Below, piece by piece: positions 14,553 to 38,402 of a DNA stretch of 64,000 nucleotides. Where the stretch lies: contig NZ_JAUNTO010000007.1 in assembly GCF_030538655.1 (NCBI RefSeq), positions 81,039 to 145,038 on the forward strand, given 5' to 3'. The DNA comes from Paracoccus sp. (in: a-proteobacteria). Its GTDB lineage: Bacteria; Pseudomonadota; Alphaproteobacteria; Rhodobacterales; Rhodobacteraceae. The notes under the pieces are model-generated. The model saw nothing but the letters and a program-made list of their open reading frames with translations. It was not told where the DNA came from and made no database searches. The first letter of the stretch is position 1. Every line of letters begins with the position of its first letter. The translations under genes were made by a program, and so were the position numbers.

Positions 14553-14560
14553 GCCGCCCC

Positions 14561-14606
14561 GTCTTTCGTTTGAAAATATCCCGGGGGTCCGGGGGCTGGC
14601 CCCCGG
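14561..14606. repeat. Dispersed repeat, copy 1 (conserved arm plus GC hairpin)
   Basis: A 22-nt segment (14561-14582, beginning GTCTTTCGTTTGAAAATATC) is identical to 20183-20204. In both places it is followed by a GC-rich hairpin, here CCGGGGGC-TG-GCCCCCGG at 14589-14606. Read on the minus strand the hairpin is followed by GATATTTT, so it can terminate the moxR transcript. Similar hairpin-plus-ATATTTT elements are, from memory, widespread in Rhodobacterales. Confidence 0.75.
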
Positions 14607-18166: not shown

Positions 18167-19294
18167 ATGCGCGCAGAAACTCAGGCCACCATTGATGCGA
18201 TCCGCAAATCGCTGACCCTGCTTGCCCAACGCATGGATTGGGACACGGCGCCGCACCGGCTGGAAGAAATGAACGCCATGATCGAGGATGGCGACCTGTG
18301 GTCCGACCCGGCCCGCGCGCAGAAACTGATGCGCGACCGGCAGGCGCTGTCGGATGCCGTCGAAACCTATCGTCGGTTAAGCCAAGACCTTGATGACAAT
18401 GCCGAATTGATCGAACTGGGCGAGGCCGAGGGCGATGATGAAGTCGTGGCCGAGGCCGAAGCCGCGCTGAAATCCCTGCGTGAAACCGCCGCGCAGAAGG
18501 AACTGGAAGCCCTGCTGAATGGCGAGGCCGACGCCAACGACACTTTCCTTGAAATCAACGCAGGCGCGGGCGGCACGGAAAGCTGCGACTGGGCCTCGAT
18601 GCTGGCGCGGATGTATGTCCGCTGGGCGGAAAAGCGCGGCTATCAGGTTGAATTGATTTCGGAAAGTGCCGGGGACGAAGCGGGTATCCGTTCGGCGGCC
18701 TATAAGATCAGCGGCCATAACGCCTATGGCTGGCTGAAATCCGAAAGCGGCGTGCACCGGCTGGTCCGCATCAGCCCCTATGACAGCGCGGCGCGGCGGC
18801 ATACCTCGTTTTCGTCGGTCTGGGTCTATCCTGTGGTGGATGATAACATCGAAATCACCATTCCCGACAATGAGATACGGATCGACACCTATCGGTCGTC
18901 CGGTGCGGGCGGGCAGCACGTCAACACCACCGACTCGGCTGTGCGGATCACTCACCTGCCGACCGGGATCGTCGTGACATCCTCGATGAAATCGCAGCAC
19001 CAGAACCGCGAGGCGGCGATGAACGCCCTGCGCTCGCGTCTGTATCAGGTCGAGCTGGACCGTCGCAACGCCGCCATCAACGCCCAGCACGACGCCAAGG
19101 GCGATGCCGGCTGGGGCAACCAGATCCGCAGCTATGTGCTGCACCCCTATCAGATGGTCAAAGACCTGCGCACCTCCGAGGAAACCAGCGATACGCAGGG
19201 CGTGCTGGACGGCGATCTGGACGCATTTATGGCGGCGACGCTGGCGATGGATGTAGCGGGCAAGAGCCGGGCCGAGGCGAACGCCGAAGATTGA
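18167..19294 (+). CDS. prfB: Peptide chain release factor 2
   Basis: 375 aa. Recognises UGA/UAA and triggers peptide release. The GGQ motif is in [14 protein letters not shown] (near residue 248). The RF2 codon-recognition tripeptide region reads [14 protein letters not shown], that is SPY rather than the E. coli SPF. The frame is continuous, so the programmed +1 frameshift found in many bacteria is absent. The ATG at 18167 gives the normal N-terminus; upstream extension is unlikely. Followed by intergenic element A. Confidence 0.97.
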
Positions 19295-19348: not shown

Positions 19349-19481
19349 CGCAACGGCTGCGGACGTTGCGTTGTGGCCGCCTGCGCAACATGGCACCGTT
19401 TCAGCCAGCATTTGCCGGGTTTTCGGCTGCACAACCCGTGCACCACCTGTGCACAGGCTGTACACAAGCTGTACACAGCCC
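19349..19481 (+). repeat. Intergenic element A: hairpin plus five 11-bp direct units
   Basis: Layout: hairpin CGCAACG-N8-CGTTGCG (19349-19370), a spacer with CAGCC...GGCTG arms (about 19402-19429), then five contiguous 11-bp units from 19427: CTGCACAACCC, GTGCACCACCT, GTGCACAGGCT, GTACACAAGCT, GTACACAGCCC. Element B at 37142-37274 has the same 133-bp length, same 78-bp offset to the array and same unit order. It sits between convergent prfB and the lysE-type gene. Function unknown. Confidence 0.8.
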
Positions 19482-19501
19482 CGCGCAACGTACGCTGCTT
19501 T

Positions 19502-20131: not shown

Positions 20132-20182
20132 CGGGCACCTCTGACCCATCTGTCATGAATTCCGAATGCCGCCGCAAGTCTC

Positions 20183-20230
20183 GTCTTTCGTTTGAAAATA
20201 TCCCACGGGGTCCGGGGTGTGAAACCCCGG
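20183..20230. repeat. Dispersed repeat, copy 2 (conserved arm plus GC hairpin)
   Basis: 22 nt at 20183-20204 identical to 14561-14582, followed by hairpin CCGGGGT-GTGAA-ACCCCGG (20212-20230). Here it lies between two divergently transcribed genes, so termination is not the obvious role for this copy. Confidence 0.75.
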
Positions 20231-37141: not shown

Positions 37142-37274
37142 CGCAACGGGGGCGTGCGTTGCGCTGTGATCCGGGCAACGGAGGGATCGCGAAACGGCCA
37201 ACTTTTGCTGGGAAATCGGCTGCACCACCTGTGCACAACCCGTGCACAGGCCGTACACAACCTGTACACAGGCC
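37142..37274 (+). repeat. Intergenic element B: hairpin plus five 11-bp direct units
   Basis: Same architecture as 19349-19481: hairpin CGCAACG-N8-CGTTGCG (37142-37163), then from 37220 the units CTGCACCACCT, GTGCACAACCC, GTGCACAGGCC, GTACACAACCT, GTACACAGGCC. By gapless comparison the array matches element A at 48 of 55 positions, and the order CTGCAC, GTGCAC, GTGCAC, GTACAC, GTACAC is the same. It lies between convergent genes. A GC hairpin AGGCCGC/GCGGCCT (37270-37290) closes it. Confidence 0.8.
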
Positions 37275-37298
37275 GCGCGCGTTGCGGCCTGTCTTTGG

Positions 37299-38402
37299 TC
37301 AGGTGGGCTGGCGGGGTTGGTCAGCGTCAGCTTGGGGTGGGGTGTCGTTGGCGGTTTCCTCGGGCAGACCTTCGCGTGACAACAGGATGGCCAACGGGCG
37401 CAGCCAGTCGATATGGGCGCAGATAATCATTAGCGCCACCATGATCGGCACTGCCAGAAACATCCCCGGAATCCCCCAGAGCGACCCCCAGAAGGCCAGC
37501 GAAATGATGATGCCGAAACTGGACAGGCGCAGCGTCTGGCCCAGCAGCATCGGGTCGAGGATGTTGCCGATGACGAATTGCAGCCCGGTGCAGGCCGCCC
37601 CGACGATCAGCGCCAGCGCGATGTCGCCTGACAAGACGAAGGCCAGCAGAAAGGCGATGACCGTCGCCACGATGGACCCGACCGAAGGAATGAAGTTGAA
37701 CACAAAGGTCAGGATCGCAATCGGCATGGCCAGATCGAGGCCCGCCATTTTGAACACGCCCCAGATGGCAAAGCCGGTCACGGCGCTGACGGCGGTTTTC
37801 ACCACCAGATAGCGGTTCACCTTGTGCATGATCGTGGAAATGATCTTGCCCACCTGCCGCGCCTGCACCGGATCGCCGGTCAGCCGTTCCAGCTTGGTCT
37901 GGAAAAACATCCGTTCCGCGAACATAAAGCCGACGAACAGGATAATCAGGATACTGCCCGACAACAGATCGCCCGCCTGACCGGCCATGGTGCGCATCCA
38001 GCCGGCGATGTTGATGCCCCGGATGGCGGACAGCAGGGAATCCTGCATCCCCACACCCAGCCATTCGGTGAGATCAGGCAGGGCGGCCTGCGCGCGTTCC
38101 GTATAGGAGACCGCGATCTGAACCACCGCATTCACCTGCGCCACGATACTGGTGGAAATGCCGATCAGCAGCGCGGCGATCAGGGTAAAGGCCAGGGTCG
38201 TCGCCAGCCAACGCGCCACCCCCTGCCGGGCGATGGCGTTGATCGCGTCGGTGGTCAGCGAAAACAGGATGATCGCTATCGCCAGCGAAATCAGCATGAA
38301 CCGCGCCTGCACCATCATGAACAGCAGGATCGCAAAGGCGATGATCCCCAGAAAGCCGGTTTGCAGCCGTTGCCGCAGGATGGTTGCGCGCGCTTCTTCC
38401 AA
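37299..38402 (-). CDS. AI-2E family transporter (TqsA/PerM-like permease)
   Basis: 367 aa integral membrane protein with about eight hydrophobic segments. Characteristic late region: FNFIPSVGSIVATVIAFLLA, then FVIGNILDPMLLGQTLRLS and FWGSLWGIPGMFLAVPIMV. Members export small molecules such as autoinducer 2 or act as sodium/proton antiporters; the actual role here is unknown. TTG start preceded by AGGGGGA. A hairpin GGGCCGGG/CCCGGCCC (38424-38444) separates it from gyrA upstream. Confidence 0.9.
   Translation of the reverse strand: MEEARATILRQRLQTGFLGIIAFAILLFMMVQARFMLISLAIAIILFSLTTDAINAIARQGVARWLATTLAFTLIAALLIGISTSIVAQVNAVVQIAVSYTERAQAALPDLTEWLGVGMQDSLLSAIRGINIAGWMRTMAGQAGDLLSGSILIILFVGFMFAERMFFQTKLERLTGDPVQARQVGKIISTIMHKVNRYLVVKTAVSAVTGFAIWGVFKMAGLDLAMPIAILTFVFNFIPSVGSIVATVIAFLLAFVLSGDIALALIVGAACTGLQFVIGNILDPMLLGQTLRLSSFGIIISLAFWGSLWGIPGMFLAVPIMVALMIICAHIDWLRPLAILLSREGLPEETANDTPPQADADQPRQPT

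Follow-up and report, generated by a model that had tools for sequence, protein, structure and literature searches.

In Saccharolobus/Sulfolobus, the ribbon-helix-helix (RHH) protein SegB has 39 peaks and 46 motif sites, and it compacts and loops DNA (PMC12284271). In Myxococcus xanthus, the RHH protein CdbA has 569 peaks, is weakly specific, binds c-di-GMP, and is essential, with little transcriptional effect (PMC7156744). The Paracoccus system described below resembles SegB in that it pairs an RHH protein with putative chromosomal sites that are dispersed and number in the tens, one of them 5' of the protein's own gene; SegB, too, has sites upstream of its own operon. The two differ in that SegB has a partner, SegA, recognizes a 13-bp palindrome rather than a phased array, has most of its sites inside genes, and keeps a core that is nearly invariant across genera (PMC12284271). 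CdbA is likewise a chromosomal RHH protein, with a direct-repeat site in which two binding regions lie one helical turn apart, and it binds its own upstream region; however, its sites do not form arrays of four to five units (PMC7156744). The likeness considered here is one of description.

Two further systems are similar in part. In type II plasmid partition, the RHH protein ParR binds tandem parC repeats next to its own promoter, with one dimer per repeat; each plasmid has a single such locus, accompanied by a gene for the ParM motor (PMC5016525). The Paracoccus system, in contrast, has tens of chromosomal arrays and no conserved neighboring motor gene in 50 loci. The repeat unit of R1 parC is 11 bp. 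The antitoxin BrnA of BrnTA shares the PF14384 domain and also controls its own promoter (PMC11980606). The Paracoccus-type RHH protein differs from BrnA in its N- and C-terminal extensions, its dispersed arrays, and the lack of a conserved small BrnT-like neighbor (50 loci).

In the present study, we analyzed two elements, A and B, in a 64,000-nucleotide stretch of DNA from Paracoccus sp. (the window). Judged from sequence, they probably belong to a set of about 26 multimeric sites, dispersed over the genome, to which one RHH protein binds.

Elements A and B

The first-pass annotation had described A and B as identical in layout, and direct checking of layout and coordinates confirmed this. 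The features are as follows.

18167 to 19294, plus strand: prfB, left neighbor of A (gene calls and prfB search; named by eye, context only)
19349 to 19370, plus strand: A, 5' GC-rich hairpin, CGCAACG-8 nt-CGTTGCG (arms 19349-19355 and 19364-19370)
19405 to 19422, plus strand: A, terminator-like hairpin CCAGCATTTGCCGG, then GTTTT (hairpin proper 19405-19418)
19427 to 19481, plus strand: A, phased array of five 11-bp units, CTGCAC/GTGCAC/GTGCAC/GTACAC/GTACAC
19482 to 19490, plus strand: A, tail CGCGCAACG, inverted relative to the tail of B
37142 to 37163, plus strand: B, 5' GC-rich hairpin (arms 37142-37148 and 37157-37163)
37198 to 37211, plus strand: B, decayed terminator-like hairpin CCAACTTTTGCTGG, without a T run
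37220 to 37274, plus strand: B, phased array of five 11-bp units
37275 to 37286, plus strand: B, tail GCGCGCGTTGCG
37299 to 38402, minus strand: AI-2E-type permease, right neighbor of B (named by eye, context only)

The two arrays are identical at 48 of 55 positions, and the preceding 78 bp at 45 of 78. The five-unit pattern occurs in the window at A and B only and was absent from 200 mononucleotide shuffles; the CGCAACG/CGTTGCG hairpin pattern has four matches (A and B, both strands each) against 0.49 expected. The terminator-like second hairpin before array A, present in decayed form before B, had been overlooked earlier. An Rfam search of the window gave no match besides two tRNAs.

A different, 36-nt intergenic repeat is present in the window at 14560-14595 and 20182-20217 (CGTCTTTCGTTTGAAAATATCCC..GGGGTCCGGGG; 86% identical, both near gene ends), and similar ATATTT..CCCCGGG strings lie 3' of prfB in a relative (L222). 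This is perhaps a second dispersed repeat, of a terminator-like kind.

Copies in the source genome

The profile search for many copies that had been proposed at the outset yielded 26 distinct full-length copies in the source genome, A and B included (E <= 2e-11), not two. The profile was built from 17 of 21 aligned own copies, and the four irregular copies omitted from it were recovered by the later search. With a three-unit pattern and up to three mismatches, 88 + 92 overlapping matches were obtained, against 5 + 4 for the reversed pattern. The copies have a whole layout of about 150 bp in common. Simple regex and mismatch rules found the 5' hairpin at 18 of the 26 copies, an undercount because the rule misses A itself, and a regex found the GTTGC-type tail at nine (A not counted). 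The terminator-like hairpin (up to three mismatches) precedes 21 of the 26 arrays, with TTTT in 12 of those 21. Since 14 of the 15 CGCAACG-type hairpin matches in the genome sit at arrays, a separate REP hairpin was rejected.

All 26 arrays are intergenic according to our own codon-score gene caller. The flanking genes are convergent at 10, in the same direction at 11, and divergent at five, and 57 further intergenic gaps (100 bp or longer) comprise 12 convergent (6101 of 17407 bp), 28 same-direction, and 17 divergent ones. No orientation is thus clearly preferred; the prediction that copies would lie mostly between convergent genes failed, and an element specific to convergent genes was discarded. 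The neighbors, inspected by eye, are varied and without a common theme, and many are housekeeping-like. Regular spacing of the arrays was also rejected (gap CV 1.27), as was a KOPS- or Ter-like replication polarity: in G434, each GC-skew arm carried arrays on either strand (12+/18- and 10+/13-; hand tally of 53 arrays among the matches listed). A region of about 490 kb in the same genome (G434:C1, 2.12-2.61 Mb), near the GC-skew switch, has no array among the matches listed, which may be chance.

Occurrence and conservation in relatives

When 84,980 species genomes were scanned for the exact four-unit pattern, at least 112 stretches were obtained; among the matches listed, 95 were Rhodobacteraceae by name (Paracoccus, Pontivivens, Planktomarina, Yoonia, Tateyamaria, Sulfitobacter, Palleronia, Nioella, Leisingera, and others) and 17 were not. 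Seven loci from other phyla among L101-L180 resemble plain tandem repeats by eye and were omitted from the locus comparison, which used 73 of these 80 loci. At L291, a locus outside this set, the script missed the array. The arrays anticipated in other Rhodobacterales were found in 52 of 125 Paracoccus genomes (up to three mismatches; one control match) and in 22 of 294 sampled Rhodobacteraceae genera (up to two mismatches; two control matches), and the exact three-unit pattern was absent from 40 genomes of other families of the class. In other genera, the sequence beside the arrays often contains GTTAAC (L101-L180).

Arrays recur at the same places across species, with orientation unchanged and little difference in distance: 9-14 bp after gltD in the source genome, G025, G047, G009, and a Planktomarina MAG, and 25-37 bp from lpd in Palleronia, Yoonia, and MAG SKW120 (genes named by eye). 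When 30 of the 71 regions 3' of prfB were examined, arrays were found in G014, G015, and G044 and a remnant in G396, and most others had none; the array in G015 is the orthologue of array A. For L213, which is the source genome and does have element A at this place, the gene end was set wrongly by the script. In 27 chosen orthologous pairs, the cores were kept at 634 of 726 positions (87%), the spacers at 353 of 605 (58%), and the flanks at 1041 of 2430 (43%).

Both array and 5' hairpin had been thought to be conserved. This holds for the array, with its cores 87% kept, and not for the hairpin, which accompanies most copies in the source genome but by eye is lacking at the majority of arrays elsewhere; the array outside Paracoccus is mostly without the hairpins, and within Paracoccus it is often paired with the terminator-like one. 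The conserved part is four to five tandem 11-bp units (GTRCAC + 5 bp), and the hairpins are additions mainly in Paracoccus. Arrays lie inside called genes at six of 60 relative loci (G025, G047, G009; L287 is doubtful), which argues that the element acts as DNA. At L269, L285, and L301, and at L275 and L298, arrays inside coding genes occupy the same codons across species and are translated into protein. In G406, arrays on separate contigs are near-identical, spacers included (GTACACCGCGC GTACACAGGCT GTACACAACCT GTACAC), and other species differ; this near-identity suggests concerted evolution or recent copying within one genome.

An RHH protein associated with the arrays

One copy in the source genome (C13:13161-13309) lies 5' of a gene (C13:12577-13101, minus strand) for a 175-aa RHH protein with a BrnA_antitoxin domain. 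The protein scored 49.0 bits against the BrnA-like PF14384 profile (cutoff 26.1), which matched all eight aligned family members scanned. The array stands 66-86 bp 5' of the gene in the source genome, G025, and G009, and in the latter two at 66-74 bp, with a left neighbor of the gene that differs from that in the source genome. The same arrangement was found in G383 and G355 (91 and 113 bp) and in two uncultured Rhodobacteraceae (L121 and L170), whose loci had been chosen by array pattern alone and whose RHH proteins are 28-29% identical to that of the source genome. A CCGRCAACGC...GTTAAC-like tail follows many of the arrays at RHH promoters and is possibly the promoter.

The RHH protein was matched in 48 of the 125 Paracoccus genomes, 45 of which were counted as strong; the weak matches in G059, G050, and G007 were scored as absent in the co-occurrence counts, and genera with a single array match as array-free. 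Genomes with and without the protein numbered 35 and 5 among array-bearing Paracoccus (either core, at least 10 matches) and 10 and 75 among the rest (Fisher p 9.5e-17, uncorrected for ancestry). With GTRCAC only and at least five matches, the counts were 32/9 against 13/71 (p 1e-11, likewise uncorrected). Among 293 other genera (arrays, at least two matches), they were 12/5 against 60/216 at E <= 1e-15 (p 4.7e-5, uncorrected for ancestry), and the association was not significant at E <= 1e-30 (4/13 against 32/244, p 0.14). In a prfB tree of 30 genomes, seven independent RHH contrasts gave four concordant cases, two with arrays in both, one with arrays in neither, and none reversed; thus, all four informative pairs of the seven in Paracoccus were concordant.

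Fifty RHH loci were compared. No BrnT-like toxin gene was seen by eye in the 14 largest clusters of shared neighbors, and the small called genes within 200 bp of the RHH gene (seven in the 50 loci) were all different, which speaks against a BrnTA module; a type II ParMRC partition module is likewise disfavored, as a conserved ParM-type motor gene was lacking beside the RHH gene. The sole conserved neighbor, named by eye, is a carB fragment about 2-3 kb away in 12 of the 50 loci, from several genera. This position is therefore taken as ancestral, which argues for vertical inheritance of the RHH gene. L320, L322, L362, L369, L376, and L387 are among the carB-linked loci. Plasmid carriage of the protein was discarded, since PLSDB gave no match, although the P. 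albicereus copy (L199) is on a scaffold labeled as plasmid. A defense system was discarded as well, PADLOC having given no match. By sequence, the PDB contained no relative except an implausible TyrRS match, and AlphaFold2 with a three-sequence alignment gave a mean pLDDT of 50. A literature search of titles and abstracts, with preprints and most subscription papers outside its scope, returned no description of the arrays or of the protein; given this partial coverage, the result is not proof of novelty.

The association has exceptions. At least five array matches and no RHH match at E <= 0.01 (profile) were found in G396, G427, G437, G453, G238, G246, G339, and G348, and G427 has 65 array matches despite the lack of an RHH match. 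Only weak BrnA-like matches were found in the array-bearing G028, G413, G006, G407, and G023. The completeness of G246 is 73% and that of G028 is 84%. Conversely, five RHH-bearing Paracoccus genomes (G049, G013, G043, G036, G039) have no genome-wide array of either core, and G015, though rich in arrays, lacks a canonical one upstream of the RHH gene. Every G396 array match listed carries a mismatch, and G398 has RHH gene fragments (C155:124654-124954) and few ATGCAC matches; these two fit loss of the RHH protein followed by decay of the arrays, of which G398 is a possible case. G427, G339, and G348 are left over as counter-cases to loss and decay.

Core sequence and strand residue

In Paracoccus genomes without GTRCAC arrays, the region upstream of the RHH gene often shows the same 11-bp phasing with a core of ATGCA or ATGCAC (a few gene starts in this comparison, e.g., in G450 and G037, are doubtful). 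This phasing led to the prediction of genome-wide ATGCAC arrays, and 15, 18, and 18 matches were found in G032, G019, and G448, respectively, and none in G013, G043, G039, G036, or G049; 16 of the 125 Paracoccus genomes have any match, and the control gave none. Among 30 family loci, the phased array 5' of the RHH gene was significant at p <= 0.005 in 20 and at p <= 0.05 in three more, and significant phasing was absent at seven. The cores at family loci, read by eye, are GTRCAC, ATGCAC, GTCTGGC, GTCTTC, GTATGAC, and GTACAT.

In RHH proteins in general, the strand enters the major groove of DNA. In the strand [VI]T[IL]x[LVI] of the present family, x is Arg at 29 of 29 loci with GTRCA pairs and Ala, Ser, Cys, Gly, or Met at 11 of 11 loci with ATGCA pairs. 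These 40 are the informative loci among 74; at six the residue was not parsed, and 28 have neither core in an 11-bp pair. With Paracoccus removed, the table reads 6/0 against 0/5 (p about 0.002, hand count).

The core at the RHH gene correctly foretold genome-wide arrays in three tests (the three Paracoccus genomes above and two other genera). G274, from another genus and without GTRCAC arrays, has a GTCTGGC core at its RHH gene. A search for a four-unit GTCTGG pattern covered 0.8 of the 4.16 Mb, as 40 stretches outside the RHH gene. It gave 21 matches with the units at period 11, against none with periods of 8-10 or 12-15; the 21 correspond to 10 distinct arrays at up to 4/24 mismatches and 11 at up to five; 40 permuted cores gave a mean of 0.125 matches (maximum 4), and five other family cores gave none. 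In G331, from a further genus with ATGCAC at the RHH gene, there were 12 matches at period 11 and none at other periods (six distinct arrays in 0.4 Mb), and 40 permuted and five other cores gave none. Part of the patchiness of GTRCAC is therefore a change of code, not absence of arrays.

Discussion

We consider it highly probable that the RHH protein binds the arrays. The putative sites, deduced from sequence, are many and chromosomal, and one of them lies 5' of the RHH gene. The earlier suggestion of a protein on successive helical turns is the best reading. A 6-bp core once per helical turn would allow RHH dimers to line up side by side along one face of the DNA, and the array at its own gene would let the protein act on its own promoter; we infer cooperative assembly and autoregulation. 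By analogy with SegB and CdbA, such assemblies could have a chromosome-structuring role in nucleoid organization or segregation, condensing or bridging the chromosome rather than controlling neighboring genes, a role that we propose tentatively, as slightly short of an even chance.

The same RHH protein might instead be an ordinary transcription factor; the arrays, about 26 in all, would then serve its regulon as operators or insulators. That all 26 own arrays are intergenic, unlike SegB sites, would also be accounted for by a regulon, and the array 5' of the RHH gene itself and the terminator-like hairpin beside many Paracoccus arrays agree with it. However, at 10 of the 26 arrays the adjacent genes converge, a setting in which a flanking promoter would not be expected, the neighbors seen by eye have no common theme, and some arrays of relatives are inside genes (six of 60, L287 doubtful); we regard a regulon as rather unlikely. 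We consider it less probable still that the element is a dispersed, once-mobile MITE- or REP-like repeat whose array is a by-product that the RHH protein (perhaps a former antitoxin) binds by chance or once helped to mobilize. Within a genome the copies do share the whole layout of about 150 bp, those of G406 are near-identical, which points to copying or gene conversion, and the hairpins look REP-like. Decaying insertions, however, would not keep position, orientation, and distance between species, nor would their cores be expected to outlast spacers and flanks, and the core here follows the RHH residue across genera.

With a 9-mer that has CACA at its end and recurs every 11 bp, the arrays recall tandem DnaA boxes, and the terminator-like hairpin before 21 of the 26 own arrays could belong to a structured 3' RNA or terminator; a likeness to DnaA boxes and a structured 3' RNA had been raised in the first-pass annotation, and we now give these readings hardly any weight. 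DnaA is near universal, and TTWTNCACA-like boxes would be expected wherever it occurs, whereas GTRCAC arrays are patchy (22 of 294 genera). Moreover, the cores differ by genus and track another protein, and GTCTGGC or GTCTTC, read by eye, is unlike a DnaA box; the DnaA reading is therefore disfavored. As for RNA, none of 22 predicted pairs had changed on both sides among 17 copies (the covariance model R1 was used merely as a profile), no Rfam family matched, and there is no orientation rule.

If the RHH protein does bind the arrays, a broader reading is conceivable, though we hold it with somewhat less assurance than the chromosome-structuring role: the protein and its tens of phased arrays may form a recognition code that co-evolves across the family. 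A change of the strand residue would be accompanied by a genome-wide rewriting of the sites (GTRCAC, ATGCAC, GTCTGG, and others), and homogenization of arrays within a genome might help this rewriting.

Conclusions

The RHH protein is a candidate chromosome organizer, so far unstudied, in Paracoccus and its relatives; if this is true, the arrays would mark loci for a dedicated structural protein that has been lost in some lineages. A DNA-binding protein that serves dozens of chromosomal sites would normally hold on to its specificity, since a new one would require every site to change as well. Within this single family of bacteria, such joint changes seem to have happened several times, and one residue of the protein tracks them. 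If the co-evolving code is real, the system would be the bacterial equivalent of rapidly evolving centromere or hotspot systems, and its variants would form a natural series in which to follow the rewriting of protein-DNA codes.
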